Positions 601 through 63,843 of a DNA stretch of 64,000 bases are shown here, one piece after another. Position numbers and translations under genes: made by a program. Source of the DNA: Antitrichia curtipendula (taxonomy: Eukaryota > Streptophyta > Bryopsida > Hypnales > Leucodontaceae); assembly GCA_951230915.1 (NCBI GenBank), contig OX579642.1:372001-436000 (forward strand), in the 5' to 3' direction. The number at the start of each line of letters is the position of its first letter. Position 1 is the first letter of the stretch. A model generated the notes under the pieces. That model did not search any database. It worked only from the letters and a program-made list of their open reading frames with translations, and had not been told where the DNA came from.

Positions 601-604
601 TTAG

Positions 605-720
605 GGGTGCAAGTACGTTAGACCCATGTTAGTTTTGGCAAAATTGGTGTGTACAAATGCATAAAATATATACTATTTTGTACTATTTTGTACTACTCAA
701 CGTCGAGGATTCTCTGGAAT
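605..720 (+). repeat. Left terminal inverted repeat and subterminal region
   Basis: The outer 24 bp match the complement of the right end at most positions. Further in are a shared TATATA..TTTGTACT stretch and the shared GAGGATTCTCT at 705-715. Four GTAC tetramers lie within the first 100 bp. Ends of this kind are where a transposase would bind. Confidence 0.7.
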
Positions 721-3380
721 TCTTTGGGTTCCCATCGTGTGGTCTACAATGTTGGATGTATTTTGGCCAATGATTCGGAAGTCAACTGTCAGAGAATCTG
801 ACACGTGGCTTGTGCTTATCTGGCTCGTACTGCAAGATTTAGTTCGCAGCAACTGTAAAGCCGTGATTCGGGGCTCCTTTCCTGTGTTTAGAAAGTTTTT
901 TTTTAATTAAAGGATCGAATCCTATGAGCTTGACCCCGCCTTTTTTGTGTTGATATTGTAAGTGATGTCATCCAGTGTTTAACGACAGAAATTACGGTTT
1001 ATGGCAAAATGTAAGGGATTCTTAGGGTTATCAACATTCGTCTAGATGTAAATTGGATGCAGAATCGCTTGTATTATATTTTTAATATGATTTCAAGACA
1101 AAATTAGAATTAAAAAATAATGTATTGTTTCCCTATTTGCAAGATTTTATTACAAAGAAATTTAAATTGCATATGCGATAGAGGACACTTTAGAAGAGTT
1201 TATTGTTTCTTCATTTTGAATTTGAAGTACAAAATGAAATTTGAAGATAACAAGAGGAATAAACATCAAAATATTGGACGTGAAGGTTTACATTTAAAGT
1301 TTTATTTTTATTTTTTTGACCTTCAAGTAAATTGAAATGAAGAATATTGACTATTGACTAACCCATAAAAATTGTATTTGCAATTTCAATTCATATATGA
1401 ACAGTCATGTGAGAGTAGGTGACAAGAATGATTAGAAATTGAGTATCTACAATATATTAGAAATCATTGTGATTATGGTAGAAAGCTTTTTCCCTCCTTC
1501 TAATTTTGACCTTATTGCCTTGCTCTTATATAATAGGTTTTAGGGATGTTTTTGGTGCCACACTTCATATATACTAGTATCCTATATTGATTTGTGTCTA
1601 GAATCTTCAATCAATATACAGTAAATGTTCAAATATTCATTTTTTTAAATAATTGCATTAAAATTAAATTATGATGTGTGTATTTTAATATATAAGGTAA
1701 TTATTAGACTTCAAATATGTACCACTTTGGCTTTTGAATTACTCTACCACATCTAATATATATGGTCAAAATTTATGATATTATAGAATGCATTCTAAAC
1801 CACATAACAATTGATAAGAAATTTAAGATTGCATTGCTATAGATACATATTTATTGAAATGTTGTTCATATCATATTTTTAACATGATAAAATTATCATT
1901 GCTGTACTTTAGTATAGGATTTACACTCATCAAATAATCGTGTGACAATCCTAATAGTTTGAATAAAACTCTTTTGATACATTAATTAAATATAGAATTC
2001 TTTAATAAATAGTTCCTTAATTACTGCATGTTGCTTGAACATGCGCCAATAATTTTTAATAATAATCAATATATTCTCAAGGTATTATTGAAAATCATAT
2101 GATTAGCAGATGGACCCTTATGCAAATGTCACATTTTTGATACACTGTATAACAAGAGTGCTAATTGAATGGTGTTTCAGTGTTTTGAATTTTTGCAATA
2201 AAATTTACATTCACCAAGTTCTTTTTTGAAAATTACTATTTCTTTCATTGTTTTAATTGATGAATTCATTGTGACCATATATGTATTTCATTTTTTGAAA
2301 TTGTTGGTAATGAAGCAGTACAATATAATGATTGTGACAACACATTTATAAAGACTTGGAATTAAACTACATACATGCATAATAAATGATATTTATACTT
2401 CTTGAAATCATTTGAAATAATTGTCTTAGGCACGTTTTAGGTGTTAATCACAAGATCTATTTCATACGTAATAATAATGTGTAAATTCATCTTAGTGCAT
2501 AACAAATGATGAAATTAAAGCAACAACTTCATTTGCAAGTTCAGGGTTTTCCTAATGGCTTATAAATTGGGAATTGCTAAAGCCACACCCAAAATTGCTA
2601 ATGCCACCCTCCCCCAAGGTGTGCTTTGAGCATGAAATGTGGGATTTTAATGTTGATTTTTTTGACTTGGATCACCAGATTTGTTTCATCTTCATCATTC
2701 TAAGGCTATATTCAAAATACTAGAGGTGCTTTAAAATTGAAACTAAAAATATAAGATTTTTCAACTACTTAAAGCAAAAATACATTAAGAAAATAGCAAT
2801 GGTGCAATAAAAGTTTAGTTTTTTTTTTGTATTTGTTCTTCTTTCTTTCAAGGAGATGATAATGCAATGATTGAATGAATGATAGATCACTTGAATTTAA
2901 AAAATTGCATTGAATTCTCAAATTACATGCTCACAAGGGTGTGGCATTAGCAATTTTGGGTGTGGCTTTAGCAATTCCCTATAAATTTAACTATGTTTGA
3001 GTATTTTAGGGGTGCAAATTGTCTTGGGCTAAAATGAAAACTATATGAAAACGATGGTTTAGCTTGGAATTTTAGATTCTTCCATTGTTTACAAAGACAT
3101 TTGGAGTATGTATAAAAATATATTATAGTTAGAGGACAATAATTCATTATAAGTAATAAATAAACATGCCTTTAGATGGAAGGTAATATTTTGATCTTAA
3201 CAAATTAAAATGAAAGATTACTATACCTCAAATACTATTATAGTATGGAGCATTACTTTGAAGCAAGGACTACCACATCACGTTAACATGATTTGTGAAA
3301 TATCATTGTGCAACAAATAATTAGCACTCTTAAATGAACCAAATCATTGAGCTATATGTTCTCATGTACAACTATTAACT
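720..3380. other. Left internal non-coding arm of the giant transposon
   Basis: This AT-rich stretch carries no supported gene. It contains the nested element at 2569-2979. The longest open frame (1120-1335, 71 codons) has no recognisable features and looks like chance in AT-rich DNA. Confidence 0.5.
2569..2979. mobile_element. Nested 411-bp MITE with perfect 39-bp inverted repeats
   Basis: The first 39 bases (2569-2607, starting GGGAATTGCTAAAGCCAC) are the exact reverse complement of the last 39 (2941-2979). The element is flanked by an 8-bp direct repeat, TATAAATT, at 2561-2568 and 2980-2987. An 8-bp target duplication fits hAT-like or related cut-and-paste elements. The interior is AT-rich and non-coding. 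The perfect ends suggest a recent insertion into the giant transposon. Confidence 0.85.
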
Positions 3381-3391
3381 TGCTCGTACTT

Positions 3392-3541
3392 CACCGGTCA
3401 CTAGGGGTCACAAACAATTACGTACAATACTCTATCCTTGCAACTAGTGATCGGGGGTTACCACTGATGATGTCGATTATTACAACCGGTGACCGCAGGT
3501 ATTTCAGACTACATGGTGCAAGAGTAACTGGTGATCGCCAG
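3392..3541 (+). promoter_or_regulatory. Array of GGTGAYCG-like motifs at 42-bp spacing upstream of the + strand module
   Basis: Three copies of a motif of the form AAC(T/C)(A/G)GTGA(T/C)CG start at 3442, 3484 and 3526, exactly 42 bp apart. A related sequence, CACCGGTCACTAGGGG, lies at 3392. The sequence between the copies is not conserved, so this is a periodic site array and not a plain tandem repeat. It lies about 0.9 kb before the likely start codon at 4414, in a GC-richer stretch that looks like a promoter. The 9-mer CGGTCACTA (3395-3403) recurs at 16572-16580 near the presumed promoter of the - strand module. Binding of a common regulator is inference. Confidence 0.4.
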
Positions 3542-4413
3542 TCACTTTGTTCCCACGTGGCCGAGACCCAGTTCTTTGTCTCGCACCTTTCTGGCGCCAA
3601 CAAGTCCTTTTTGTTTTTTCAGAGTTTTCCGTAGTGCTGCAGAAGCTCCGTTGTTGCGAGCTTTGCATTTTGTTTCATCTCTATTCCTCTTTGAAGTTGC
3701 TTTGCCGTTAGAAATGAAATCATGTAGTGTGTGGGTCGTTCAGCAAGTAGGAATGTGGTCGTAGATTTGGTTGTAGCAAGCGCAGTTTTTTGAATCGTTA
3801 GAGAAGTTCATAGAGTTAGCTGGTGAAAATTGGAGAGGATGAGCTGTGAGTACGGTAGTTTAGGTTATGTAATTTCTGTCTTTCTATTGTAGTGGAACTT
3901 GTTTTCCGGAAGGAAGTTCCTCCAAAATTTTGCAAAGATCTAGAATTTTCATGCAGCCAATTCTTATAATTCTAGTTTTTGCGGATACATTTTTGGTGAG
4001 TTCACAAATCCTTTCAAGTTATTAGTTTGCTTGTTGGTTGATTTCAAATGGATATGATTTGTTTTGGCTCAGCAACTGCGCATCTGCGTTCGAAATGTTG
4101 GATTCATAGACTATGCTTTTCATGGATTTGGTGAGAATGAAATGAATTAGATCTTTTTAGTGCGTGGTAGAGACGTTGATTTCACAGAACATTCAGTTTT
4201 GGTAATGATGTTGTCTATGGTTGTTGAAGTTCTCAACATTTTTTTTTTCCTTGCTTAGTTAGTTTGTTTGCTGTTTGCTTTAGAATTTCAAAGAAGATGC
4301 AATATTATTTCAAGTTTTGAAAGGGAAATCCATTCATTCCAAGCATGCGTGGATTAAGAGTTTTGGGTTATTTACATTCTTCCTTGTTGTTTTGGGCTTC
4401 AGAGTTTGCTACA
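3542..4413 (+). promoter_or_regulatory. Presumed promoter and leader of the + strand module
   Basis: GC-richer and pyrimidine-rich sequence precedes the first convincing start codon. A possible splice acceptor (GGGCTTCAG at about 4395-4403) sits just before the ATG at 4414, so the leader may contain an intron. I see no clear TATA box that I would defend. Confidence 0.35.
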
Positions 4414-7400
4414 ATGGAGCGTTCTACTGGAACACAGTCGGGGAAGGGCAGCTTCGGTAAAGGGAGGTTCAGTGCGGTGAAAAGCAGAGACAATGGTCGA
4501 AAAGGGAGGGAGGAGACAACAAAACAAACAGACGTTGCAAGGAATGACAAGGTGACTACCTCGCATCAAACAGAGGGGCCCTCTCGACGCAACATTGAGG
4601 ACGGACAGAAACGGAAGAAGGGGAAGACAGCTCGAGGAAATGACGATGGCAACCAAATGCCCGGCCCTCCTCAAAATGATGACACCTTGCCGCAAAAGGA
4701 GGGGGGGGGGCCTGATGACGAAGACTATAGTATTGGCAAAGGTGACAGTGTCGTGGAGGAATACAAGAGCAACTGCAAGAAAGCGCCGACCAAGGGGAGA
4801 AAGACGAAAATTTTCAAAACGCCCGAAGACGTCGACATCGAAATCAGTAATCTGAAGCAACCTCCACGAAAGCTGACCAGAGAAGACTTTGCGAGGGAGT
4901 ACGCGCTTCTAAATTCCTCAAATACAAATCCTCATCGGTACCGAAAGGTTTCTATGGCAGCGAAGGTGGTGAGGAAATATTTTGGAGAGCCCTCTGGTGA
5001 AGGTGGGTGCAACGGTTTTTTCTGGCAACAATGCAAATTTCCTGAATTGAGAGAGAGGATCAGACAGCTCCATCCAATTATGTACCAACACGGCCCCAAC
5101 GAGGTACCTGCATTGCTCAAGATGCATTTTGCGGAAGGAGTTGTGATGGAGTTTGAGAAGGGAAGCCAAGAGGTTAATTGGTGCTTGTTTGGAGAGGAAA
5201 CAAACAAGCAGCAGCGCAATCGGTATGATCAAGAGCTTAAAAAACTACAAAGTCTAAAAAGTTTTTTGTTAAGTACCTTAAAACCGGTAAACCTTCAAGG
5301 CATGGACTGGAGGTCCATCAAGTTGGAGCGAGGGTTAAAGCAAGAGGAAGGTGGGGGTAGCGCAGCTGGATTCACGATGGAAAGATTGCCTACTCTTACC
5401 CGGTCAAAGCATGGAGAAACTGGTGGGGAGTCGGGGGTGTCTGCAGATTGTGTTGATTTGAAGGTAGGACCAGGAATGTTCTCCAAGGTATCTTCAGCTG
5501 AGCGGCAGGTTGAGGTGGAGGCGCTCATGAGCGTTGTACACATGGAAGGGGAGGTGCTGAAAATTCAGCAAAGGGAAGCCGAATCAAGTGCAGAGAAGTG
5601 CCAATGGAAGAAGAGAGATATTGAGTCTGTAATAGGCATTTTTAACAAGCAAATGGAGGTGAAAAAAAAATTGATCGAGGAGATGAGGGATTCTAGTATG
5701 GACGTGGGACGTGAGCTCATTAAGGTTGAGATGCTCCAAGAGCAACTGGAAACATAGGAGCAACACTTGACAGAAGTTAACATCGACTTGGAAGGGGCGG
5801 ACACCCTCATGGCGAAGTTGGCCCAGCAGGTTCAATGCCATCGGCTGGAGTTTGATGCGTTGGTAGCTGAATCGTGGTCTTTCAAGACAGGAAGGCCTGG
5901 GGGGGTATTTTTTCCTAGACCGATGGTGTATGCCCCTACTGAGGAGGATGCTCTACAATTGTCATGCTTCAGCAAGGAGACTGATTTTCTTAAACTCACG
6001 GTTTGCTCTCTTTGTTCATTTCCCTTCCCCCATAGTGACATTATATTTTCATCTTGCCGCCATTTCTATCATCATTTTTGTGCATCAGTTGTGTTCAGTA
6101 AGAGCAATCGATGCACTAGCTTGGGGTGTCATTCTCTGCCACATCCAGAATGGCACCGGAGTTACGGTTGGGGCGAGCCGAGTGCAGAGCTTGTGGAGAC
6201 ATCTTCAATGCTAGGTTTATGTGATGAGAGGAAGAAGATCCTCCAAGACCGATTAGATTTGGCAAAATCAAAATGCCCACCTGCTGGTAAGACGCTTCTC
6301 TATTTTTTAACTTTCAAATCTTATTATAACGCACACCTCTATAGTTGTTGTTGTTAAGGGTTCTTGAAGGTTTGTAAATCTTAGTATAACCCACACGTCT
6401 ATATTTTTTGTTAAGGGTTCTTGAAGGTTTGTATAGTACAATTACAAGTCCATTATTTTATCTGTAGGATATATGGTTGACCATGACACTTTTGTTGCTG
6501 TATTATTCAAACGCTCTCTATAGTATTGAACTAGCAAAGTTGTTATTTAAAAATGCACTAACAGATACAATAGTTATTACAAAAGAGTAATTGACAACAA
6601 AGTGCTGTTTTTTTAATATCAGTTTGTACCTTAAAGGATGTATGAAAATGTTCAAAAGGGAACGCCAATTAGAATTTACATAGTGTGTTTATACAAAAAT
6701 ACAGTAAACAAATATAAGTACAATGATTTGTACTTATTATCTCTAACAGTGGGAAAATTGTATTGCTAATTCACAAGCTTATTGTTTTGAAGTAGAGTGC
6801 TGTTATTTGTACCCCATTTATAGAGTACTAATTCACATCAACTATACTTATTGTACCCATTTTAAACTATTCATATGTACATTTATATAGTATACAAAAG
6901 CAAAATATTAAATAGTACTCATATTTTGTTCTAAAGTACTTGTTCTTTGAATTTGTATCAAGTCTATATTGGCCAGAACTACATTTTTTCTTTTCAGTAC
7001 TTGCGTTTTTTGTTATACTCATTTCTTTGTAAAGTTGATACTTAATTTTCACTTTGTATTCAAGATTACATAGTGTATTTGTAAATTAGTACTGATAAAG
7101 TACAATATTAATTATTGTTTCGAAATCTATGTTTCTGTTTGGCTTCCTTTACAAATAAAATTCAGTCTGCATAATTTAGTTGTCATACTTTTTGATGTAT
7201 GTAATTATGGATAAGTGTTCCCTTTTGGAGAGACATGGTGGTTGTTGATTTCAGCATATTGATTGCATTGCGTTGCTTGTTGTGCAGTTTCTTGCCAGAA
7301 GTTTGCTCATCCTGCAAACTCTCCAGCTAATTTCACAGAAGGAGCAACTAGCCATGCTATTAATTCACCCAAGACTATTCATTGGGGAGGTTCTGGATTG

Positions 7401-8959
7401 TCTAAAGTTCTTGAGGAGGACATTGCACCAAAAGAGGCCAATGATGTAGAAAATTCAAACAAGAGAGTTTGGGGTGAAGTTGATAGTCCGGCTTTGAAAT
7501 TGAATGCGAGAAAGAGGAAGAAGAAGGCTAAAAAACCAGTGACTACAAGCAACAAGGAGACAGAGACAGAATTCAGCTCAGAGTCAGAATCAAGCGAGAA
7601 TCATGGGCTTGCAGTGAAGGTGATGAATTTGCCATCTAGCTCCGGTACCACTGTCTCAAATTCAAAATCTCAGAATAAGAGCAGTGATAGCGATGTTAAT
7701 GGATTGCCATTAGGTGATGAGGAAGTGGATTGCCAGGTATGTAAATTTTTTCCCCAAAAATAGTGTCATTCCATCCATATCAGCATGTGTAATCTTTAAT
7801 TTCAAGGCTAATATGTGTTTTGTCTTCTTAGCAGATTTCCAGAGAAGGTGCTCACTTGGCAAATCCGCTTGGAGAAATTTGGGGGTTCAGCGAGAAGGAA
7901 GAAGAGTCTTTACGGAATGATGCAAGCAATTGGTTGGCAGGGGTTGATGGAGACACTATTCCTGTAATGTCTAAAGGCAGTGGGGGTGTTGGTCAGACAT
8001 TGCGTGTAGGAGAGGAGGATGACATCCAGGAAGTGGGAGACAAGATTGACATTCACAACGTGGGAGAGAAGATTAACATCCACGAATTGGGAGATGGGGC
8101 TGCCATTCACAAGGTTCAAGTAGGGTCTGACACCCGTGTACAGCAAATGGGAGAAGGGGCTCACACCATCAAAGCGGGAGCACATGCTAACACCTGCATC
8201 GGCAACATGGAGAAGGCAACTGATCCATGCCTCCACGTAGTGGAAGAGGTGGCTGACACCTTCAACTGCACAGAGGGAGAGGAGGCTCACCTTGTCGAAG
8301 TAGAAGAAGTGGTTGGCATCTGCAAAGGGTCTTTTGAAGAACCCATGCAACCACTGCCCCTACCACCCCTACACTACAGTGCTCAGCTCGATGAGCAAGT
8401 CTCTTTACATGCGCAAGGAGGCAAGGCAAGTTGTGAGATAATTCTTGGGAAGGGGAAGGAAATTACTGACAAAGATTCCAAGATGATGAGGGGTTTAGAT
8501 GAAGTGGTTTGTGAGGAAGGGGAGGTGTTGGTTAAGGAATCTTCTGCACATGTTAAAGGTGGAGGTAACAAACATGTTGGGGGTGGCGGAATTAGTGATT
8601 TGAGCACGGGGTTCAAGGTTGTTTTTCGGGAGGGGCACCTTGCAGCGTCAGAAGAATAGAAGGAGGAACAGGAGGAAGACACGGTGAAAGACGGTACTCT
8701 CAAAAGAAATTAAAAAAAGGAGAAGGAGGGGAAAAAGAGGCACAAAATTTTAGTTGAGGGTGAGAGAACCCAAACTGTTGTGGAGAACCTTGTAGGTTCA
8801 GAACCTAGTCCCTTCACAGATTTGAGGATCATAGCATCTGGGGTGGAAGATGAGGGTGTGGAGGCAGCATGCCATCCGGATGATTCCACCAAAGTTTTTT
8901 CACCTCCGGGCAGGAGAAATACAAGATCGCAGCAAGGACAGTTAACATTGTCTACGCAG
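4414..8959 (+). pseudogene. Coiled-coil and RING-like protein, 5' part of a RING/SET gene, with in-frame stops
   Basis: Three exons fit in phase: 4414-6286 (donor G|GTAAGA), 7288-7736 (donor CAG|GTATGT) and 7832 or 7835-8959 (donor CAG|GTAGAC). The ATG at 4414 has a good plant context (acaATGG); an earlier in-frame ATG at 4345 is possible. The N-terminus is basic and Ser/Lys-rich. A long coiled coil follows at about residues 370-485. A RING-H2-like zinc motif, C-x2-C-x13-C-x-H-x2-H-x2-C-x10-C-x4-C, starts near residue 531 (6004-6129). Exon 2 encodes a Ser-rich linker with a basic cluster, and exon 3 encodes degenerate acidic repeats. Reading is broken by TAG at 5755, inside the coiled coil, and by TAG at 8657 and TAA at 8711 in a Lys/Glu-rich stretch. 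The same frame continues past each stop, so they look like point mutations. Exon 3 would join in phase to the SET exon at 9476. The family is not recognised. Confidence 0.6.
6287..7287 (+). repeat. GTAC-rich intron of the + strand module
   Basis: This 1-kb intron joins exons in phase (GCT G | TT TCT TGC). I count 13 GTAC tetramers, often inside TTGTAC or AGTACAA. Roughly three would be expected at this base composition. The intron of the transposase module and both ends of the transposon show the same enrichment, so these may be repeated binding sites of the element. Confidence 0.5.
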
Positions 8960-9170
8960 GTAGACAAAACCTTGTTGAAGAAGCGTAGACGGTCGTAGAT
9001 ACTTGGGCAATTGTTTTGTTGTTCTGAGTATAGGTTCTAGTATTTATTTGCATTCATAGTTTTGGTTATAGTAAGTTATTTCCGTTTGCAATCTTGGTCT
9101 CAATTAGCCAAGTATCATGTAGCCTAGGAAAAAATGTATCTTACCTTTGTAGTGGAGGCTACTGAAATAG

Positions 9171-9387
9171 GATCGGGGTGGATTGACCCCCTCGCTTGGC
9201 CTTACCAGGGGTGCATGTAAAAAAAAAGCCCCCTATTTTGGGCCGATCCAGGGATTATTATTGATGTTTTAAAACTAATTAGGGGTCTCTGATCCCAAAT
9301 ATGAATTCAAAATTTGCAAAGAAAAACTTGTGCGGAAAACAGGGTCGGCCCGCAGGGCCGAGCGAGGGGGTCAGTTCACCCCGGCCC
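9171..9387. mobile_element. 217-bp hAT-like MITE inside the intron before the SET exon
   Basis: Inverted repeats of about 30 bp share GACCCCCTCGCT and GGGTG blocks at both ends. The element is flanked by an 8-bp direct repeat, TGAAATAG, at 9163-9170 and 9388-9395, the target-site length of hAT elements. It is much more GC-rich than its surroundings and has no coding capacity. It lies wholly in the presumed intron 8960-9475. Confidence 0.8.
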
Positions 9388-9475
9388 TGAAATAGACACT
9401 TTGTTTTACAAGAGCTAACTTATGTAGTTTGTAGTTTCTACATTCTAATGTGGTTTGATGGTTTTTTCTCTATAG

Positions 9476-10434
9476 GCTCCATACAATGCTGAAGACTTGT
9501 CTAGAGGCTTGGAGGCAATTCCAATCCGTGTAGTACCTAATGAATCAGAATTGACACCTTTCAAGTATATAGCTGCTAGTGTAGTTCATAATAATGCTTA
9601 TATACATACCTCTATTGTTGGGTTAGGGAAAAGTGAGTGTTGTTCTTGTGTCTCAGGAGATTGTCTAACAGCAGCAGTTCCTTGTCAGTGTGCAAAGGCC
9701 ACCGGTGGCGAGTTCGCATACAATCTAGGTGGGTTGTTGAAAAATAAGTTTTTGTCAAAGATTGGTAATGCTAGTAGGGGTTTCATTAGGGAGTGTAATT
9801 TAAAATGCCCCTGCCACAGTAAATGTGGTAATCGTGTGGTTCAACAGGGGATGAAATATTTGGTAGAAGTGTACCATACAATGCATACTGGATGGGGGAT
9901 TCGAGCTATTCAGTCAATCCCCAAAGGTGCATTTGTTTTTGAGTTGACTGGAGAGGTTTTGACAAATTCAGAGATGGCAATTAGGAACCTTGTAGTCTGT
10001 GATGGTCCCTCATACAGTTTGCAACTTGATGCTGACTGGGCCACTGAGCGGAAAGCAAATGACGAGACAGCCTTCTGCTTGGATGCCACTCACTATGGCA
10101 ACGTTGCAAGATTTGTGAACCACAAGTTTGTCATTTACCATGTTCTATCTAGTGGTAAGCAAGTGTATGAATGCATTTCAGTTTTCTAATCAGTAATTTC
10201 TGTATCTTTTGCAGGTGTGGGGATGCTAACTTGATTGATGTGCCTGTGAAGATAGAGAACGCCGATAAAAGCTTTTACCATGTTGCATTTTTCACAAATC
10301 GAATGATTGAGGCGAAGGAGGCGTTAACTTGGGATTATGGAATTGACTTTGAAGATCGTGACTCAACAATGCCGTGTTTCTCTTGTAAGTGTGGGAGCAT
10401 GTTTTGTAGAGATCAGTTGTCAAATTCCATTTGA
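9476..10434 (+). CDS. SUVR-type SET-domain histone methyltransferase (pre-SET, SET, post-SET)
   Basis: The exon starts after a TATAG acceptor at 9475, ends at 10125 (AA|GTTTGT), and joins the last exon 10215-10434 to read NHKCGDANLID. The 289 residues open with a DLSRGLEAIPI stretch typical of SUVR1/2/4 proteins. A Cys-rich pre-SET follows (CSC...GDC...PCQC, then TGGEFAY and ECNLKCPCHSKCGN). The SET core follows with GWGIRAI, GEVLT, the YSLQLDADW strand, RFVNHKC and LTWDYGIDF. The post-SET is CFSCKCGSMFC. All zinc and catalytic motifs look intact. Family members methylate histone H3 lysine 9 in the nucleus and act on repeated DNA. There is no WIYLD domain upstream; a RING-like protein lies there instead. 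The first exon has no ATG near its start, so expression needs splicing from upstream or internal initiation. An inactive host-derived copy is the main alternative. Confidence 0.8.
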
Positions 10435-11614
10435 TAACAACATGAAGGTCACAATATGTGTAGCATAATTTTCAATTGACTAAATTGTGTTTGATAAGTT
10501 GTATTTTAAAAGACATGTATTGTAATGCATGTGTTTTGAATTTTCCTTTACTTCAGTGATTATTAGTCTTCTACTCTGTACCATCTAAGGTAACTTGAAA
10601 ATGAGTGCAAGTAAGGGTCCAATAACAGTTAATCAAAGTCTTTGAGAGAGTAACTAATATGAGAAGTCATAACATTGTCAATACAAAGTCTAGGCAAAGT
10701 CAATGATATTGAACTATGTAAATTAAACAATTACCAGAATTTGATTTTCAAGTTGCGTGCACCAGTTCTCACGTTTTTTGTACAAGAATTAAGGCCTCTA
10801 AGGTCCAAGAACTAGCTACCGAAGCAATTAGGATGAACTGAAAAGCAACAGTAATATGACTATAAAATTTTGGGCCATTACTTTCAATGTACATAGTGTA
10901 CACTTTGTATAATAAAACGTATGAAATACGGCTTTCATGCAACCATTTTTTATGTTGCTAGTACTTGAATCAATGTATAAGAGAACTAGCAACAAGTATT
11001 GAAAGCAATTGTAAGAATAAGATAAAAAATCAACGGTAGTGTCAATATTCACATTTGGCCAGGAGTTTTCAACTTTGTGAAACAAAAATCAAACGGAACC
11101 ATTCCTTATGTCTTTTTATAATTCCATATCTCACATATCCTAGAACCCTAAACCAATGCAATGTAGATTAATTAGAAAACAACAGCATCACAATTTTAAA
11201 CTATTGAGCTAGTTGATTCAATACATACATTAGAATCCCAACCAAAGCTACTATAACAAACTAAGAGTTGCTGCAACTAAGTGTATCAAAGATAAGAGCA
11301 CTACTAATGAAAATTACCCACAGCTAAATGGCAACAAAAGGTATTAGAGGCAATAGCACTAAAAATAAAATTAAAGTAGAATATTAAGAGCTGAATTGTC
11401 TGCTCAAGTGAATGCTATAATGCATATATAATTTGATAATACTAGCCCACAAACGTCACATGATTATCCCACTTAAAACTGTCTGAAGCTGTATTTGAAG
11501 TATCCAAAAATACTCTGGTCAAAGTACAAACAACATAATTAGTATCCAATGATACTTGGTAGCATACAAATATTTTACAAACCTATGAATCAGACATCCT
11601 AGACTAGTAAAACT
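10435..11614. other. Spacer between the convergent modules
   Basis: This AT-rich stretch holds the 3' ends of both modules. I see no gene and no clear poly(A) signal for either transcript. Confidence 0.5.
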
Positions 11615-14600
11615 CTAAACATTGTTAAAGGCCCACCATTCCCATAATGCGTCTTCACACATTCTCTGCGATTCAGCTGATAACTTATAAACCTGGGTAC
11701 CTTTCACCCTGTGTGATGCAAGAGTCATAGGAAATTTACAAGCACGAACTAAATGAGCATCAACATGTGCATCCACTGCCCTATTTACAAAATACATACG
11801 TGTTCTCTAAGCGTCCAAATTTTTTATAGTATTTACCCCGGATAACAGCATCCCCTGCCATGAAAATCCCTCTCCATAGACAAGACAGAGGCTCTTCCAG
11901 TAAAAATTTGGTCTTTTTGCATTGAAGAATGTAGAACTCAACACCGTCTTCGTTATCGTCCTCTGCAGGGACCATAAAGTTGTCTCCAACTTCTACCATG
12001 TCGCCAATCGTCACCGACACTCCATCATGCAACCGATTCTCGACATTGTCCATCTCCTCGACTTGTTCCGCAACTGAGTAGGCGTTGACGGGTACTAGCT
12101 TCTGCACTCGCCAATCCTGCACATGTGATACTTTTTCACAGTTATCCGAGTCACCATCAACACAAGCAATACAAAAGCAAGATAATGCACGAGTTTTGAG
12201 AAGACAAGGATCTGTGGTAGAGAATCCCATGATAGAGTGTAGACTTTTGGAACCAGGAATAGTGTTACATCTTAAACTAGTGTCATCATGATTAACTTCT
12301 CCTTCGGCAATGTCCCAAAATACTCTAGACATAGTAGAGGTAGTTGATTGATGATAGGAACTAGGAACCCGGTTTGTATATTTTTCCTCCAAAAATTGAA
12401 CCACTTGTGTAGCATTTTGTAAGGGTCGAAGCGGATTTTCAATTTGCTCCGCTGCTAACACTCTCTTCACTACAGCTCCTGCACCATCCCACTCCCCTTT
12501 TCCATGTGCAGATTCAAAGTAATTCCATCTCATAAGGCAACCTCCAGTTAGCATTGGGTATTTAGCAACAAAGAACATAGCAGTGGCACACTTAAATTGT
12601 GCACTGCAACCATCGCTAAATACCCAGTGCTCTGAAGGTGTAAAACCAGAATCTAACAACCAATCCTAATGTAATAATAAACAATGCTGCACAAAAGATG
12701 AATCATGGATTTTATCATCTGAAATGTAAAAGTGTGTTTGCTTGAAAATGTCATTTCCCTCCTTCCACATGGTAATGTGAACCAGTATTGTGACAGAAGT
12801 GCTAAAGTAGTACAAACTTTGCACTTCATTCTGAATAGCAAACGAATAATTTTCAGCAAAATCAATGTGAGAAACAATTACTCCCTCAGGTATGTTGGTC
12901 ATCATTAGTTGGCATTGCTCATCTTGCCATCTAGCTCTGAAGTTGTGTGTAATGAATGTTGTCACCGTCTTCTCCATATATGGTAAGAACACATATACTG
13001 GAGTGTCTTTGAAAGCCTCCTTCAATCGTTTCTTAACCTTCCCTGTATTTGCATCCACTCCTATTTGGTAGTACTCAAAGCACTTCCATTTCAAAGTAAA
13101 TGAAGAAGAATGACATAACTCCTGGTCACAAAAGGTTAGTAGATGAAATCCACAATTAGTACAGTCTCCCATCAAGCAATCTAGTCTATGCCATAAGTCA
13201 TACTCATCCTTAGGACAAACACAAGCTTCCCACATTAAAGTCATGCGCTTGTAAACATTATCGTGAGCATGGCAACCACCCTCTGTACCTCCCTCCCCAT
13301 TGCCTGAGCAAACTAAACAGCCACAACTACAATTTGTAGATGCATGCAAACCCCTCACTCTATCCCTTAGGTTATTTAAAGCAGTTTTCATAAAATCCAT
13401 TTCCACATGGTAAATACAGCAACAAGTGTTCCTCACTTTCAATTTCCTGACCCACCAAGGCTTTAACCTTTCGAATGCCCTCTGCCGCACATTACACTCA
13501 GAATGAGCTTCTTTGACACGCAAAAAAAAACAGGTCTGCAAAACAGAGAAAACCACCACAAATAGAAGGTGCAGATAACTGAATGAAGTCATAGCACCCT
13601 TAGGAATGCAATATGTGTTTATGACGTTCTGAAAAATTTGTTCTACAGAAAGAATATAGAGTGAACTTACAATTAAAGTAACTTCATAATTATCATTGTA
13701 CAAAAAGTATTAATTTCTAATATTTGTATCACAAAATAGTTAGTGTGACATGATAATTGTACTGTAGTCACACCTAGAATAGCTAAAAACACTATTTGTA
13801 TCTAAATATACTAGACCCAGGACTGAACAATGTACATACTAAGAAGTTCCATGTACAAAAAATATCTAAAAAATTGTTAGAATACAAGGTTATGTAAAAT
13901 TGTACTTTATGTATAACAGAGATATACTTAGATCCGAGGTTTGTACTTTGGATTATGTTGAAACAATCAAAATATTATATTTGTACAAAAATGTACAATG
14001 AGAATAGATCATCGCCTCTTTTAAAATACAAAGAGTAGTGGTAACAATGAATATCAATATTTAAAGGGACCTAGTAGTATTACTTCTACTAAACATAATT
14101 ATTGAAATCCGGTAATTGTATTTTACTTCTACTACAAAATATTGTTAGTGACTTGATTATTCAGATAAGGACATATGTAAATTCTCTTGGGTACAATAGT
14201 ACAACTATTGGAAAGCATTAAGTACTAAATGAACAAATTAGTATTATAATTGTTTCCAGCTTCACAGTATGTGCTACACCGGAGTTTGTCATCAACAAGT
14301 CCATGAAAGACTATTGTAAGTGCTTTATGTAATCATAACAATGAATGAAAGGCACTGGATAAGCATCAAGTCACCCAGAATTATTTTATTAGGACATGCA
14401 TATATTTTACATTTCAAAGGCATTCCTATCTTATGAACTTCATGATATTTGTACTCAAAGCTATGGATTCAAGAATTAAATAATCTCAAAACTAGAACAG
14501 AACTTCAAAAAAGAACCATACCTGAGTTTCACAAAGGTAGTGTGTAGGATGAGGCTCCACCCATTGTGCACGGCCCACCCTGTGCCTGACAACATCCTTT

Positions 14601-15319
14601 TTGTTTGGTGACACCTTAGTTTGACCATTCCACCAGACATTGATACAATTCTTGACGTAATCAGACAATCTTGCTCTTTGAAGTCTATGCAATCGTAATC
14701 TTGGCACAATATCTTGAACATCGTTTGCAACAACCCTTCTTGTCAAAGCCAAGTTAATACTCTCGGTTGTTGTATCTAGAACTCGTGACAAAGCTCTGAC
14801 CCCATCAGTCCCCAAACTTACGACAGCATCTAAAAGAGCACTTTTCCTTGCTAAAAATTCATTGGAATTTGCAACTTTTACCAATTGCAATTCATGCTTG
14901 AAGTTACGAAAGAATGAATGAATCACTTTTGTTTCCTGTGGCCTAGGATAGTACATAGGAAGCAAAGGGCCTATAGTATCATGGCGCAAGAATTTCTCCA
15001 TGACATCTCTCCTACTACTAGGACCTGGACAGCTTCGCAATTCATCAAGTACAAATTGTGATAAACGTAGTGATCTCCGATGCACTTCTCTCACTGGTAA
15101 GTGATCATTCACGTCACGATCAGGAGGCGCTACCACTAAAAGTAGGGTCCCTTGTAAACTCTCCTTGTCATGTATTCTTTGACACGCCTTCCTCTCTCTT
15201 GCATTTTCTGTAGCTGCGGTTAGAACCTCTTCATGCGTACGAGCCTGGGCAACTCTATCTGCTGGACCAGGTCTAATGCAACCATTCCTTGCACGTTTTC
15301 TTTGGGCAGCATTACCCAT
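11615..15319 (-). pseudogene. DDE-type transposase-like gene, broken
   Basis: The likely start is the ATG at 15319 (GCAATGG). Exon 1 runs to 14522 (CAG|GTATGG) and exon 2 starts at 13535 after TTTTGCAG. Both are in phase and join as HYLCETQ|TCFFLRVKEAH. The motifs in order are: a Cys-rich pair (NCSCGCLVC and CLMGDCTNCG), HIDFAENYSF (12869-12840) with a first acidic residue, FSDGCSAQFK (second acidic residue at 12614) and ESAHGKGEWDGAG (around 12500) with a third. A C-terminal Cys-rich stretch follows. I recognise this motif set from uncharacterised transposase-like proteins but cannot name the superfamily. TAG at 12668-12666 interrupts an otherwise continuous frame between LLH and DWLLDSG. 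Near 11790 the frame shifts by one base and the likely C-terminus (HLVRACKFPM...) continues to 11615. About 905 residues would be expected. Its placement between the inverted repeats suggests it mobilised this element. Confidence 0.7.
13536..14521 (-). repeat. GTAC-rich intron of the transposase module
   Basis: This 986-bp intron contains about 12 GTAC tetramers, mostly as TTGTAC or GTACAA, against roughly three expected. It mirrors the intron of the + strand module. The intron ends are standard (GT 14521-14520, AG 13537-13536). Confidence 0.5.
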
Positions 15320-15920
15320 TGCAAAACTCTTTTGAAAGTACCTAGAACTTGTAAGGACAACTCTTGGTCCTTTCAAAACATGATCGATCTACAACTGCGG
15401 CAGGGTAAGTCCTCAAGTTAGACAATAAATGAGAGCTTGAACTGACCGCACTGTCGCAAGAAGAAGACACTGTACTGGTGATAACTACATGGGGAGGAGA
15501 CTCATCTATGCTATTGCACTGGCCCCAATAGAATTCACTCTTCCCTTGCTTGGACAATGGAGTTTCTGACACATATCCAGAATCACTAGTCCATTGCGAA
15601 CGAGCGGGCCCTGCCTCAGTTGATAAGCAAATGGAGCCCAGCTGAGTGGTTGGGACCAAATGAATCCCACAATATATTTCGTTTGCAAGAAAATATGTAG
15701 TAATTAGTTGTTGGACTGGAACAGACAGTATCTCAAACTCCGTCTCAATTGCAGGAAAGAAGGATGTAATTAATTTCTGAACAAAAGGAGACCTTGATGT
15801 AGACATTCTTTGGAATCTATATGACCACTGTACAGGCAACAACAGACAACTTGAAACAATATCACAGGAAGGTATGGGCTCATGAATCTCCAATGGACGG
15901 GCTCTGCAACACAAACTCAA
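15320..15920 (-). other. Open frame just upstream of the transposase start, possible N-terminal exon
   Basis: A frame open for 192 codons (15920-15342) overlaps the start region in another frame. It contains two related segments, one with LITSFFPAIETEFEI and the next with LITTYFLANEIYCGI, which suggests an internal duplication. A TGTTGCAG acceptor near 15904 could begin it. I find no clean splice to the transposase frame. It could be a further N-terminal exon with a frameshift, or leader sequence. I do not know its function. Confidence 0.3.
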
Positions 15921-16650
15921 GCAACGTAAGAAGATTGTGAATACAAAGTGTAGATGAAACTAATTAAGTGACAAATAGAACATGAATACACAACCAACAA
16001 GAAAACCAAGTCATGCAACTGAAAGGAGCGTTGTACTTCAATATAAACAACGTTGTTCATTCAATAAAAACATGGAGAAATACACGACGGGAACAGAGAA
16101 GCAATTTACCTTGACACAGACTCCGAATATGGCAAAATTTTGACAGAGAACACATTGGCAAAAAGAAAACAATTCACGTCAACGCAAACTTCACGGTTTA
16201 GCAATAGAAATGACAGCAACAGGAAAGCGATTTTTCTCTTGAAGGCAAGATCCGCGTTAAAATATGAAACACCGTGAACTAAAACGACATAGAACAGGCA
16301 AAAAATGAACGTTGGTACTCAACAGACATGAAACATGGCAAAGACAGTAGGGTAACGGACACGGAATCAACAAAACAGATAATGCTATGATTCAACGGAC
16401 ATGTAGCAGGAGAGTGAGAGCAAGAAAATCGATAGGTGGAAGGTGGACCGATCAAAATTCAGCAACCATGCAAAGAATCTTTTTGCGCGAGGAAGATTGA
16501 GCTAACTGAGAGAGACGACTCGACGTGGCTGATTGAGAAGAATCAACGTGGCGTAATGGATCAGGGCTTGGCGGTCACTACAAATAGAAAAAACGAAATA
16601 TATGGTGGCTTCATTAACGAGGGAATCTATATACAAAGTACTTTATGTAC
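15921..16650 (-). promoter_or_regulatory. Presumed promoter and leader of the transposase module
   Basis: Read on the - strand this is pyrimidine-rich and GC-richer than its surroundings, like the leader of the + strand module. It contains CGGTCACTA at 16572-16580, a 9-mer also found in the + strand promoter region at 3395-3403. No gene is evident in it. Confidence 0.35.
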
Positions 16651-17100
16651 ACTAAACACTCTGCTCCGATACAAATGAGCACGGATTTGCAACAATTTTT
16701 TAATCATTACAAAAGTGAGATAGAAAATTCTAAAAGGAAGCCATTCTAGAAAAGGAGGTGAACGTTCAGGATATCTAAAAATTCTAAACAGAGCATAATT
16801 TTCTACAAAGTTATCCCATGTCAAAATATCTAGCCATAATTCAGAATTCCTGGCCACACCAGATATTCAATTTAAAATTGGAAGGCAGATTTGGATAGAA
16901 TACCCTGAGCGGTCTTTTCAAGATGATGCGCAGCAGAATACGGAACCTCTAAGATGAAAAATAATGTACTATTTGGTTATTTGAAGTACTATGACATCTT
17001 AGTAGTTGTTTGAAAAAGTACAAATTGAATATTCAATCAATGGTTTTATTACGATTTCAGTCCAAACCCTATAAACTTAAGACACATACCCTGCCATGAG
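16651..17100. other. Right subterminal region of the giant transposon
   Basis: This is AT-rich and non-coding. It carries several GTAC motifs, for example near 16967, 16986 and 17018, in keeping with the enrichment at the left end. Confidence 0.45.
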
Positions 17101-17219
17101 ACCATAGAGAATCCTCAAAAACATGTTTAAAGTTTGGATAAAGTTAAGTACAAAGTAATATATATTGTCATTTTTGGTTTGTGACCTAAAAAGTACAAAG
17201 GTCTAATGTACTCACACCC
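17101..17219 (-). repeat. Right terminal inverted repeat and subterminal region
   Basis: The complement of this stretch begins GGGTGTGAGTACATTAGACC and contains TACTTTGTACT and GAGGATTCTCT (17106-17116) in the same order and at nearly the same distances as the left end. TTAG follows at 17220-17223. Confidence 0.7.
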
Positions 17220-17223
17220 TTAG

Positions 17224-22487: not shown

Positions 22488-23433
22488 CCCCTAAAGGTTT
22501 TTGACTATGTTTTCACAAAAAAACGCTCCCAAACTGCCATTTCTAGTACAAGTACCAAATTTTGGGAAAAAAAACATTTTTGGACACATGTAACCATAGG
22601 ATCTTGTAGTAAACTAGTTTGAGAAGATGTGGAAAAAATTTCAGAAAATTCCACCATGTAGATTGCAAGATATTAGCATTTGAAGTGATAAAACCCTTTT
22701 TTTGTCCCTGCGAAAAACCGGGCAGCTGCACTTCACATGGTCACATTTGTATGAAAAAATGTCCAAAATGGTGGTAACTCTTTGGATTCATTCTTCAAAG
22801 CAAGTTAGCTACATGCTTGAAAAATTTCAGATCATTTGGAATTGTACATCATATAGGAAAAAAATAGTAAGTGGAAAGAAGTAGAAAATGATTCAAAACA
22901 CTAAATTGTTAAGGATTTAATTATGAAATTGAAAAATGCCAATCCAAACAATTATAATGTTGTAATAAACAATCTACACCTTGTGTTTATATTTTTTTCC
23001 AAAAATATTGAAAATTGAGTTAAATAAAGGACTTCAAAGTTTATTTTAGAGTAGAGATTCCATAACTACCCACAAACTACCCACAACTAAAATTCCTCAT
23101 AACCTTCATCTCATAAATCAAAGTGGAATGATTCAAAGCTTTCCTTGTGCACATAAATCTAGAGAACCAATTTCAAATTTTTATTTCTCTAGAAAATGAT
23201 TTTTAAAGAAGTTTTTTTTGCTACCCGGACTGCCCGCCGAACAATGAAAACTACATATCATACCATAACTTTTTAACCATGTGATCAAAAGTTATGAAAA
23301 TTGTTGGGCCCTAAATCTACTCCTCGGGCACATCTTGTGTGAAAATTTCAAAGAAAAAAAATGAAAATTCCATTCGTGGTGAGCTGCCCCAAAACGCTGT
23401 GTTGTCAAAAAACGGTGTTTGGTCCTTTAGGGG
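22488..23433. mobile_element. Family A element, full-length copy (TTAA target site, CCCCTAAAGG ends)
   Basis: The element begins CCCCTAAAGG and ends CCTTTAGGGG. It is flanked on both sides by TTAA (22484-22487 and 23434-23437). It is 946 bp and has no coding capacity. A TTAA target with CCC-type ends is typical of piggyBac-like elements, though Kolobok and Sola3 also use TTAA. Related copies lie at about 26930-27635, 29218-29895, 35700-36186, 42329-43168, 56394-56765 and 58795-59503. This copy is the reference for the family in the window. Confidence 0.8.
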
Positions 23434-26929: not shown

Positions 26930-27635
26930 CACTTTTCTCATAAACAAAAATTTGAAATTGTATTTTCAGAGTTATATATATATATATATGGAAAGCTTAT
27001 AGTCATTTCATTTTGACCAATGAGACAAAAGTTATGAAAGTTATGAGGTGTTTTAGTTTGCGGGTAGTTATAGATTCTCTACTCTAAAATAAACTTTGAA
27101 GTCCTTTATCTTATTCAATTTTCAATACTTTTGAAAAATAATAAAAATATAGGATGAAGATTATTTATTACAACATTTCAACCATTGGGATTGGCATTTT
27201 CAATTCCATAACCAAATTCTTAACAATTTTGTATTTTGAACCATTCTCTACTTCTTTCTACTTACTATTTTTTTCCTATATGTTGTGCAATTCCAAATGA
27301 TGTGAATTTTTTTAAGCATGTAACCAACTTGTCTAGGAAAAAGAATCAAAGGAAGCACCACCATTTTGGACATATTTTCATAGAAAAGTGAGCTTGTGAA
27401 GTGCAGCTGCCCTGTTTTTCACAAGGCCCAAAAAATGATTTCAGTGAATTTGAATGCTTATATCTTGCAATCCACATGGTGGAAATTTCAGAAATTTTTA
27501 CCACATGTTCTTAAGACAACATACTACAAGGTCTTCATGTGTCAAATTTTAAAAAATAAATAAATTTGGTACTTGTACTAAAAATGGCAGTTCTTGAGCG
27601 TTTTCGGTAAAAACATAGTCATGGAACTTTAGGGG
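26930..27635. mobile_element. Family A element, truncated copy in inverted orientation
   Basis: The complement matches the first two thirds of the 22488 element, including the CATTTTGGAC, GAAGTGCAGCTGCC and AATGGCAGTT blocks. It ends TTTAGGGG followed by TTAA at 27636-27639. The other end is missing; the similarity fades near 26940, next to a short (TA)n run. Confidence 0.7.
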
Positions 27636-28695: not shown

Positions 28696-29217
28696 AAAGT
28701 CTCCTCATGTAAAGAGACACACTGAGACTTAGAGTGGTCACTGGTGTAAAAAATAGAAACTTGAGAGATAAATCAAGGTCTCATTAATTCCATTTACTTG
28801 AAGTTTAGAAGTTATATAGACATAAATAAGGATAAGGATTATGTCATTTCAATAGATTTAACTAAAACATGGATCATAAAAATAGAAAAAAGTAGGAATT
28901 ATTTATTCTAAAGTAGCACGGATTTTAATGGACAATACATATTTTTATTTCTAGGATGTGCACAAAGCACACAAGGGACCATGCTTTTGTGGGCCAAGTC
29001 AAAGGTGCACTATTTTACATCTAGATGAGTAGATGACTTTGTTATAGTTTTAGATGACTAGTTTTAGATTTTACATTTGGAAATAGATGACTCCATGAAC
29101 AAGGGTTTCACGCTCCTCTGTAGTGACGTAATGTATACCATGTCTTCAAATTTTAATTTTTTTCTTTCCACATATGGATGAACACCTTTCTATAATCCTT
29201 AAATAAAAATCTAAGTT

Positions 29218-29895
29218 GTAGTGTGCTGCCCAAAATCGCTATGTTGTCAAAAAACGGTGTTTGGTCCTTTAGGGGTTAAGGCAAGTTGGCTACATGCTTG
29301 AAATTTTTTAAATCATTTAGAATTGTACAACACATAGGAAAAAAAGATAAGTAGAAAGGTGTAGAGAATGATTCCAAATATTAAATTGTTAAGAATTTAT
29401 TTATGGAAATGAAAAATGTCAATCTCAATGGTTGTAATCTTGTAATAAACAATCTACAACTCATGTTTTTAATTTCTTTCCCAAAATATTGAAAATTGAG
29501 TAGAATAAAGGACTTCAAAGTTTATTTTAGAATAGAGAATCCATAACTACCCACAAACTAAAACTTTCTCATATCTTTTGATTCATTGATCAAAGAAAAA
29601 TGATTTAAAGCTTTCTATGTATATAGAAAGCTAAAGAACCAATTTCAAATTTTTATTTTTGAAATTTTTATTTTTTTCAGATTTGCCTAGATTGCCCAAG
29701 TTAAAAAACAAACTGCATTTCAGGCCATAACTTTTGACTCATGCTTCCAAATGTCCTGAAATTTAGTGCGCATGAAAGATATTCTTTGTCCACACCTTTA
29801 ATTAAAATTTGGGCCAAAAATATGGAAATCTCTAATCACACGTACCTGTCCAAAATTTATATATAGCCAAAAAATGTAGCTTGGTCCTTTAGGGG
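29218..29895. mobile_element. Family A, chimeric copy: a 3' end joined to a second truncated copy
   Basis: Bases 29218-29275 match the last 60 bp of the family A reference and end CCTTTAGGGG with TTAA at 29276-29279. Directly after this, at GCAAGTTGGCTACATGC, the middle of a second copy starts and runs in the same orientation to CCTTTAGGGGG at about 29895. The second copy lacks its first 300 bp. Its terminal TTAA has become GTAA. Confidence 0.65.
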
Positions 29896-35300: not shown

Positions 35301-35695
35301 AAAAATTAAAATAAAATAAAGAAATGATGTTTTAGTAAACACATGGCAGGATGACACAAGAGCAAACATCAAGAAGAGGGGACAAATAGACCTCCTCCAA
35401 AAACTTCACGAAAAAGAGTGCGACGAATGCAAGAATAACACAAAGGCGGAGATGAAAGAATCGAAATTGATGCTCTTCTTTGCGATTGGGGGTCAGAGTT
35501 CGACACCGGAATGCAAGTCGGAGAAGACGAAGTTCAAAACATTCTTGAGCTTGTATAGTACAGCTCATGTGAAGTCACTAGTCACCATACAACAAGGAGG
35601 GGTTCAAACTTCATGGGTTGATTAACTGAATAAAAAAACTTATTATTTAAAAAAAAAATTGTACGTGATTCTCGAGGGCCCACACGACTTGTTGA
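32349..35695. other. Spacer with possible retroelement remains, no gene
   Basis: A direct repeat (TTTAAAGGAGGTACACATAA-like, ending GTGTTTAAAC) occurs near 32842-32880 and 32922-32962. A - strand frame at 34197-34015 and another at 35568-35332 are short and match nothing I recognise. I see no long terminal repeats and no reverse transcriptase or protease motifs. Confidence 0.35.
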
Positions 35696-35699
35696 AAAA

Positions 35700-36186
35700 A
35701 ATTAAAAAACATTGGGTGTAGATTGTTTATTACAACATTACAACCGTTGGGATTGGCATTTTTCAATTCCATATTTAAATTCTTAACAGTTTAGTGTTTT
35801 GAACATTCTCTACCTTTTTCTACTTACTATTTTTTTCCTATATGTTTTACAATTCCAAATGATCTGAAAATTTTCAAGCATGTAGCCAACTTGCCTTGAA
35901 GAATGAATCCAAAGAGTAACCACCATTTTGGACATTTTTTCATACAAATGTGACCTTGTGAAGTGCAGCTGCCCGGATTTTAGCAAGGACAAGAAAAGGA
36001 TTTTTGTCAATTCAAACGCTATTATCTTGCAATCCATACGGTGGAAATTTCTGAATTTGTTTCCACAACTTCTCAAACTAGTTTAACACAAGATCCTACG
36101 GTTACATTTTTCAAAAAAAAAAAATTTCAAAAATTTGATACATGTATTAAAAATGGCAGTTTTAAATCGGTTTTGACCTTTAGGGG
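35700..36186. mobile_element. Family A element, truncated copy in inverted orientation
   Basis: The complement matches the first half of the family A reference, including the AAATGGCAGTTT, GAAGTGCAGCTGCCC and CAATCCCAACGG-type blocks. It ends CTTTAGGGG with TTAA at 36187-36190. The other end is lost near 35700. Confidence 0.7.
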
Positions 36187-63060: not shown

Positions 63061-63843
63061 ATCGTATATCCCCCTAATTCAGCCTCCCCTATTCCGCACT
63101 AACCACGTATTGGAAAACAACAACAACAACGCCGTGAAGAAAAATTCCTACTCTGATGTATTCGCGCTATCCTTCCCATCTCCTCCCACCGTAAGCTCTG
63201 TCCCTCCCTTGCGCTCGTCCTCACCCTCCCCATTCCCTACTCCCCTCCAACTAACTCCCGGCTCTTCACACTTCAATCGCCTACCGCAGACGCAATTTTC
63301 CACAGGAAAACGAGATTGTCGCACCAGAAGAAACCGTTCTAAATCACACACACACAAAGAGCGCACTCACGCTCGAGAAAATCGCGCCAATCCGTCACAA
63401 CATCGCGTCGATCACGAGACGCTCCCTCCACTTTCAAAACTTGAAAGCTGAAACCCCCTCCAAGTCTAGGCATCATGTGTACGCGAGCATGAGTGTGCGT
63501 GCGAGGGATGGATGCTTTCCGTCATTCCAGGTCATCGGGATTCATCCTCATCCACGAGTCCAATTATAGGATCACACCTCCAGCTCTCCCGCCAACTATA
63601 TCTACCAAGTTCTCTGAGTTAGAACCAAATGTATCCCAGGAACTGATTCGCGCTTTCCAAGACGATCCTGGAATCCATGGAATAGGAACATTTTGGTGTG
63701 TCGTGGAAAACCAGGTGTCAGGAAGGAGTGATTGGTTCCCCGGGCGGAGGATGCTTCTGTCTGCCCACCATTTAAGTTACAAAATTGTCCAATGATTAGT
63801 AAGCCTAAACAGCCGGCCAATATTGAAGTTAACTTGTTATTAC
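63061..63843 (-). promoter_or_regulatory. Upstream region of the zinc-finger gene
   Basis: The region is GC-richer than the spacers, with CT-rich and CA-rich runs such as ACACACACA near 63348, and is probably leader plus promoter of the gene that starts at 63060. A + strand frame (ATG at 63508, ending at 63795) encodes about 95 residues without recognisable features. I do not call it a gene. Confidence 0.4.

Follow-up and report, generated by a model that had tools for sequence, protein, structure and literature searches.

A 64,000-nucleotide stretch of the genome of the moss Antitrichia curtipendula (contig OX579642.1, positions 372,001 to 436,000 of the forward strand; hereafter the window) was analysed computationally. 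Positions 605-17219 of the window are a copy of one DNA transposon in which a transposase gene and a gene for a SET-domain protein recur as a pair, a reading to which we assign a probability of roughly 0.93. Such an element had been proposed in an earlier note, made from the window alone, on the basis of matching inverted ends, TTAG on both sides, a further block common to the two ends (100 bp in from one and 103 bp from the other), and convergent transposase-like and SUVR-type SET modules. Each of these was present where it had been placed (Table 1), and copies elsewhere in the genome settled what the window by itself had left weak.

Copies of the element in the host genome

The host assembly searched comprised 400,189,583 bases in 303 contigs (the window being C10:372001-436000). 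The left 156 bases of the element had 16 matches (14 whole or one base short, and 2 that were parts of one split end) and the right 156 bases had 18, of which 14 showed 92-100% identity and the remaining four were partial (77-83%). These ends paired into 14 elements of 16,450-24,849 bp, in which the extra stretches of the longer copies look like nested insertions. Mean identity between the window copy and the 13 others was 96.8-98.3% over aligned pieces, and tblastn recovered each of the three modules tested (transposase, SET domain and the SET gene's N-terminal part) in all 14 full copies. The ends thus recur at 13 other sites, contrary to the possibility, raised in the earlier note, that they occur only here.

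A perfect 4-bp target duplication flanked every full copy, and all 14 were different (TTAG, ATAA, AGAT, CTTA, TCTA, TAGG, AACC, CACA, AAGT, CTAT, AACA, TGGG, AGTA and TTTA), with no common longer duplication beyond 4 bp in the flanking bases. The earlier note had asked, as confirmation, for several copies in which shared ends enclose the two modules and the duplication differs from copy to copy, and these were found. An origin of the 14 loci as segmental duplications is disfavoured, as no match was seen between the flanks of different copies. Within the C6 copy the left and right flanks were similar (139 bp, 86%), and those of the window copy were so over 27 bp.

A search for an empty site was run on one copy (C8), within the same genome. 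The flanks of this copy, joined at a single CACA, matched over their full length of 116 bases, at 96-99%, at 27 other places of equal length, and the only two partial matches were the C8 copy's own flanks; the copy sits within a repeated sequence. An empty site with a single target, which the earlier note considered decisive if seen in a relative, was found here within the host's own genome.

A fifteenth copy (C1:44747850) retained the left end, with the SET and transposase genes 43-47 kb further on and no right end found; only the start of the SET gene lay within 20 kb of that left end, and the copy looks to have been split by insertions.

Two miniature inverted-repeat transposable elements (MITEs) nested in the window copy bear on the unit of movement. 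At least one exact end of MITE 1 was found in all 14 full copies, and this MITE is an early insertion of the element family. MITE 2 occupied the same internal place in seven of the 14 copies (7 genomic sites) and was absent from the other seven, with 18 diagnostic columns separating the two subgroups; its presence inside some copies and absence from others indicates that the element moved after MITE 2 had landed in the predicted SET gene.

Within the window, the ends by themselves were rejected as proof of an element, being near chance. In 12 Markov shuffles of the window, 0-2 end pairs each had equal 4-bp flanks, an inverted match of at least 17/20 and a spacing of 3-25 kb, compared with 35 in the real window; the other 34 real pairs all lay to the right of the element, mostly within a dispersed repeat. 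In the same window test the inner block GAGGATTCTCT (11 bp) exceeded the shuffle maximum of 8, but did not exceed the repeat pairs. That chance inverted repeats enclose two unrelated host genes, a view which the near-chance ends of the window would favour, is refuted by the 14 copies, their 14 duplications and the empty site. The dispersed repeat family was present in both orientations at 22577-23186, 27050-27604, 29201-29658 and 35689-36173, with copies about 78-91% alike. An end pattern with 17 fixed bases had one exact match in the viral collection (L001:524-543), taken as probable chance.

Recurrent pairing of the transposase and SET genes

Genome-wide searches with the two proteins showed a pairing that extends past this family. 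The SET protein gave 188 matches, which after removal of second-exon rows reduced to 104 SET loci, and the transposase (P0001) gave 94 rows, which reduced to 72 loci once second pieces of one locus were dropped; counts of SET loci here and below refer to the matches listed. Transposase loci were grouped by identity to P0001 as at least 65% (group A), 44-49% (group B) and 39-43%. A facing SET gene was present at 44 of the 72 transposase loci, comprising all 28 in group A, 14 of 16 in group B, and two at 41-42% identity which match in pieces, as the 44-49% group does. Regardless of orientation, 46/72 transposase loci had a SET gene within 15 kb, as opposed to a mean of 1.2 and a maximum of 8 over 2000 random shifts (with assumed chromosome lengths for C2 and C9). 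Fifteen of the 28 close loci belong to the element family of the window (the 14 full copies and the split copy) and 13 lie outside it. The SET gene is therefore a recurring partner of this transposase lineage, and the pairing is wider than the window's own family.

SET loci without a listed transposase within 15 kb include 33 members of one repeated family, 40-49% identical and with open frames 260-282 residues long, and two single-exon genes with frames of >600 residues (C8:6082377 and C1:23272978), which are probably host SUVH-like genes.

Structure and relatives of the SET gene

Exons of the SET gene were predicted from GT/AG borders and kept phase. The earlier note had given the gene too short an extent, as five exons joined in one frame by predicted splice sites run from 4414 to 10434. 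The in-frame TAG of exon 1 in the window copy is GAG in the other 13 copies. The spliced protein matched EHMT1 (GLP) over residues 6-283 (E 1.9e-42), from pre-SET to post-SET and including the post-SET cysteines. Pre-SET, SET and post-SET regions with conserved cysteines were all found, together with the NHxC and DYG motifs. The predicted product resembles a SUVR4/G9a-type H3K9 methyltransferase and is predicted to act on H3K9.

The WIYLD domain (PF10440) had no match in five pieces of predicted SET exons 1-3 at E up to 10, and was listed for none of 23 clade relatives of the SET protein, most of which are single-exon pieces. Structure prediction of exon 1 without an alignment was unusable (pLDDT, the predicted local distance difference test, 38). 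In Arabidopsis, SUVR4 targets transposon chromatin and uses the WIYLD domain to bind ubiquitin; if this holds, a RING-like part replacing WIYLD might point to ubiquitin-coupled methylation.

In the protein database, 78 SET matches were obtained at E 1e-30 or better, and a profile search gave 405 matches, of which the best 120 were used. A tree of 79 SET proteins grouped the window protein with 23 contig proteins in one clade of 24 members (support 100/98), with 51 named plant proteins outside this clade and four further contig proteins grouping with named ones. A second tree of 48 rows, which omitted five short rows of the element clade, divided 32 element-like from 16 host-like rows with split support of 100/100. 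By these trees the element SET proteins are a clade separate from host SUVR4, not placed among plant SUVR4 orthologues. Pre-SET cysteines were invariant or nearly so among the diverged relatives. No relative of the SET protein was found in the viral collection.

One SET protein of the database (P0125) and a distant transposase (P0024) lie on contigs of identical size (213,937) from the same source, which does not imply adjacency. A second equal-size pair (P0005/P0117, 5267 bases) was left unused as it may be chance, near-misses running at ~0.1 per offset among 2376 pairs, and also because its SET and transposase affinities disagree; a third protein search gave no further SET/transposase contig match.

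The transposase

The transposase gene is predicted to consist of two exons, the second carrying the catalytic core. Residues D247, D330 and D372 were invariant in 32 transposases and conserved at 90% or more in 49 including fragments. The protein database held 69 relatives, including sequences from Cryptomeria and Ceratodon. Alignment of the transposase model with VIA-align gave an integrase match, and Foldseek alone gave weak matches, several of them RNase H-like; an RNase H-like core is predicted. Searches of Pfam and of Protein Data Bank (PDB) sequences gave nothing convincing, with no Pfam match above cut-off; viral structure models gave nothing at E 0.001, and no relative was found in the viral collection. 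The prokaryote genome collection likewise yielded no relative.

GTAC motifs in noncoding DNA

GTAC was the most enriched 4-mer in the noncoding DNA of the element, with 53 occurrences where flank composition predicts 15.2 and base order 21.6. The longer form GTACAA/TTGTAC occurred 33 times in noncoding DNA (6.5 +/- 2.6 in 300 dinucleotide shuffles) and three times in exons (3.3 expected). Three clusters stood out (Table 1), while 500-bp windows wholly outside the element held at most 6 GTAC. Motif counts were similar across the 14 copies (32-44), as one family would give. By analogy with VANDAL21, discussed below, the arrays suggest a self-recognition signal; they may equally be a transposase site.

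Features of the window

Coordinates of the element and its parts are given in Table 1. To the right of the element, the minus strand at 47875-54699 carries the host PRP8 gene, in which a 1,929-codon open frame covers the greater part of the protein and another frame the JAB/PROCT end, and a frame with a C2H2 finger of zf-met type lies at 62077-63078.

Table 1. Positions of the transposon and its component features in the window.
Feature	Position	Strand	Remarks
Left target site duplication TTAG	601..604	.	identical to 17220-17223
Whole DNA transposon copy	605..17219	.	16,615 bp; ends paired again at 13 other genome sites
Left terminal inverted repeat GGGTGCAAGTACGTTAGACC	605..624	+	17/20 match to right end
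Nested MITE 1	2569..2979	.	perfect 8-bp duplication TATAAATT; 42-bp inverted ends
SET exon 1 (predicted)	4414..6286	+	one open frame except TAG at 5755; found in 14/14 full copies
RING-like finger in SET exon 1	~5998-6129	+	Pfam RING matches weak, best E 0.0024, below cut-off
GTAC cluster, SET gene intron 1	6400..7110	.	12 GTAC per 500 bp
SET exon 2 (predicted)	7288..7736	+	GT/AG borders, phase kept
SET exon 3 (predicted)	7835..8959	+	GT/AG borders, phase kept; two stop codons in window copy
Nested MITE 2	9171..9387	.	217 bp; 8-bp duplication TGAAATAG; in predicted intron before SET exon
SET exon 4 (predicted)	9476..10125	+	pre-SET and most of SET; Pfam Pre-SET 1.3e-15, SET 3.1e-10
SET exon 5 (predicted)	10215..10434	+	end of SET and post-SET
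Transposase exon 2 (predicted)	11618..13535	-	DDE/D catalytic core; in window copy broken by TAG and by frameshift near end
GTAC cluster, transposase intron	13600..14250	.	9 GTAC per 500 bp
Transposase exon 1 (predicted)	14522..15388	-	splice donor and frame; first ATG near 15319; found in 14/14 full copies
GTAC cluster, right end	16960..17219	.	7 GTAC per 500 bp
Right terminal inverted repeat GGGTGTGAGTACATTAGACC	17200..17219	- (17219-17200)	17/20 match to left end
Right target site duplication TTAG	17220..17223	.	identical to 601-604

Comparison with known transposons

Published systems were compared using sources of which parts were available, and what is said of these systems refers to those parts. 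Sola elements have a DDD transposase, 4-bp target duplications and terminal inverted repeats (TIRs) from 11 bp, are mostly 2-9 kb with some >15 kb, and are known from the moss Physcomitrella (PMC10741241); in Sola2, Fanzor1 can be present as an additional gene (PMC3627910). The present element resembles them in its 4-bp duplication (14/14), DDD transposase and 20-bp TIR, with copies of 16.4-24.8 kb that include nested insertions. It differs in its SET gene, none being mentioned for Sola in the available parts of these two sources (PMC10741241, PMC3627910). Since three described features of Sola elements were found, we label the element Sola-like.

DNA transposons carrying a gene for a chromatin enzyme have precedents. 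HarbingerS and MuDR transposons of Phytophthora carry SET genes (Kojima and Jurka 2014, via PMC12730594) and share with the present element the combination of a DNA transposon and a SET histone methyltransferase gene, but differ from it in transposase superfamily and in having an oomycete as host. In fungi, KDZ and other transposons carry TET/JBP (PMC12730594), likewise placing a transposase beside an epigenetic enzyme, which in KDZ is a DNA dioxygenase and here a SET protein. The KDZ precedent cited in the earlier note holds in this respect, but the element itself is unlike KDZ: Zisupton gives 8-bp duplications (PMC12730594), the 4 bp seen in 14/14 copies speak against membership, and this length and the conserved D-D-D residues fit Sola. 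SETMAR also joins SET and transposase domains, as one domesticated primate fusion gene that is not mobile.

VANDAL elements, a family of Mutator-like elements (MULEs; PMC13317346), offer a different parallel. In VANDAL21, introns and noncoding DNA upstream contain VANC21 motifs, which are bound by the VANC21 protein (PMC5735166), and the likeness to the present element lies in short motif arrays in noncoding DNA, with element-encoded chromatin control on the VANDAL side. VANC acts by hypomethylation (PMC5735166). Motif binding in the present element is putative. The Sola-like element encodes a SET protein, which to our knowledge VANC is not.

Our literature search, which covered titles and abstract openings with most subscription journals and Repbase Reports outside its scope, found no plant element with a SET gene among the papers listed and nothing joining Sola elements with a SET domain. 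A review from 2026 on genes captured by transposons of plants (PMC13317346) contains neither 'histone' nor 'SET' as a word, and the text of PMC6431247 contains no SET domain, histone, Sola or KDZ. The earlier note knew of no described element with this gene pair; this needs to be narrowed, as SET-carrying DNA transposons of Phytophthora precede it, and stands for plants as far as found. As far as found, the transposase type, the plant host, the RING-like N-terminal part and the dense noncoding GTAC arrays are new.

Possible role of the SET protein

The element may be pictured as a Sola-like plant transposon whose 16.6 kb move together, in all likelihood by a cut-and-paste mechanism. Its transposase, with a predicted RNase H-like core and three conserved aspartates, would act on the 20-bp ends to leave 4-bp target duplications, perhaps aided by the GTAC-containing repeats beside the ends. 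The second, convergent gene would supply a SUVR4-type H3K9 methyltransferase with a RING-like N-terminal part, which could be guided to the noncoding DNA of the element, perhaps via the GTAC arrays, to set its chromatin state. Self-directed chromatin control of this kind would either limit the element's own expression or compete with host silencing. We regard it as a tentative proposal, with odds somewhat short of even, that the SET protein directs the chromatin state of its own element to one of these ends; that the SET gene controls silencing, as the earlier note suggested, is likewise something we infer. The broader possibility of an old plant transposon lineage, in which a RING-SET protein at GTAC arrays in introns and ends writes chromatin state as a standing part of the life cycle, handed across families sharing less than half of their transposase residues, appears doubtful at present.

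Several observations weigh against this picture, from the classification of the element to the role of its SET gene. The Sola label covers described features such as duplication length, DDD residues and TIRs, and is provisional. Two of the 16 group B loci had no SET gene within 15 kb, and in the 39-43% group a facing SET gene was present at 2/28 loci, with two more having a SET gene within 15 kb in another orientation; the SET gene thus seems dispensable for transposition across parts of the lineage. For 59 of the 104 SET loci, the nearest 15 kb contained none of the listed transposases. GTACAA was somewhat raised outside the element too (22 against 13.8 +/- 3.8). Among the 14 copies, C to T change had affected 5.5% of CG, 4.4% of CHG and 1.1% of CHH cells, with A/T transitions at 0.18%, a plant-type footprint which makes it very likely that the element has been methylated, so that its SET gene did not prevent silencing. 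In the exons examined, every copy had at least one stop or frame-changing indel (SET exons were unbroken in 8/14 and the transposase in 3/14, as far as examined), and present activity therefore cannot be claimed. Lastly, change among copies was near-neutral, with an observed/expected ratio of nonsynonymous to synonymous change (N/S) of 0.75-1.15; such changes within one element family say little on selection.

Identical stop codons recurred in copies of both MITE 2 subgroups, a pattern that recurrent C to T mutation of methylated positions would produce.

Among specific roles, that of a repressor is possible, if not yet probable. The SET protein would add H3K9 methylation to its own element, as copy-number control, or to competing transposons. 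The pre-SET, SET and post-SET arrangement of EHMT/SUVR type is consistent with this, as is the CHG decay of the copies, since CHG methylation in plants is tied to H3K9me2. Against it, CG/CHG methylation is general for plant transposons, and the decay figures are those of the 14 copies. An anti-silencing factor which, like VANC, upsets host H3K9 methylation at the element seems unlikely: the GTAC arrays do resemble the intronic and upstream noncoding VANC21 motifs of VANDAL21 (PMC5735166), but from an H3K9-type enzyme that is complete one would expect the silencing mark to be added and not removed, and the CG/CHG decay also speaks against such a factor.

Less probable still is that a host SUVR4 gene was captured by chance and has been carried as a passenger without use. 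The near-neutral evolution of copies and the scarcity of facing SET genes in the 39-43% group would suit a passenger, but the facing gene has been kept throughout group A and at nearly all group B loci, whose transposases are only 44-49% identical, and the cysteines of the pre-SET region are conserved among diverged relatives. The equal-size contigs of P0024 and P0125 argue in the same direction, within the limit on adjacency given above.

Transposons are usually targets of H3K9 methylation. Our data describe a plant transposon lineage that carries a gene for a silencing-type enzyme, with the two genes facing each other at 44 transposase loci of a single genome, and the SET-poor sister group of transposases (39-43%) provides a natural control. 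It can now be tested whether silencing serves transposons as a restraint on themselves or on rivals, as can the passage of chromatin enzymes between hosts and parasites. By carrying this gene the parasite possesses part of the machinery that silences parasites; if the broader possibility given above is true, it would also run its own heterochromatin switch.

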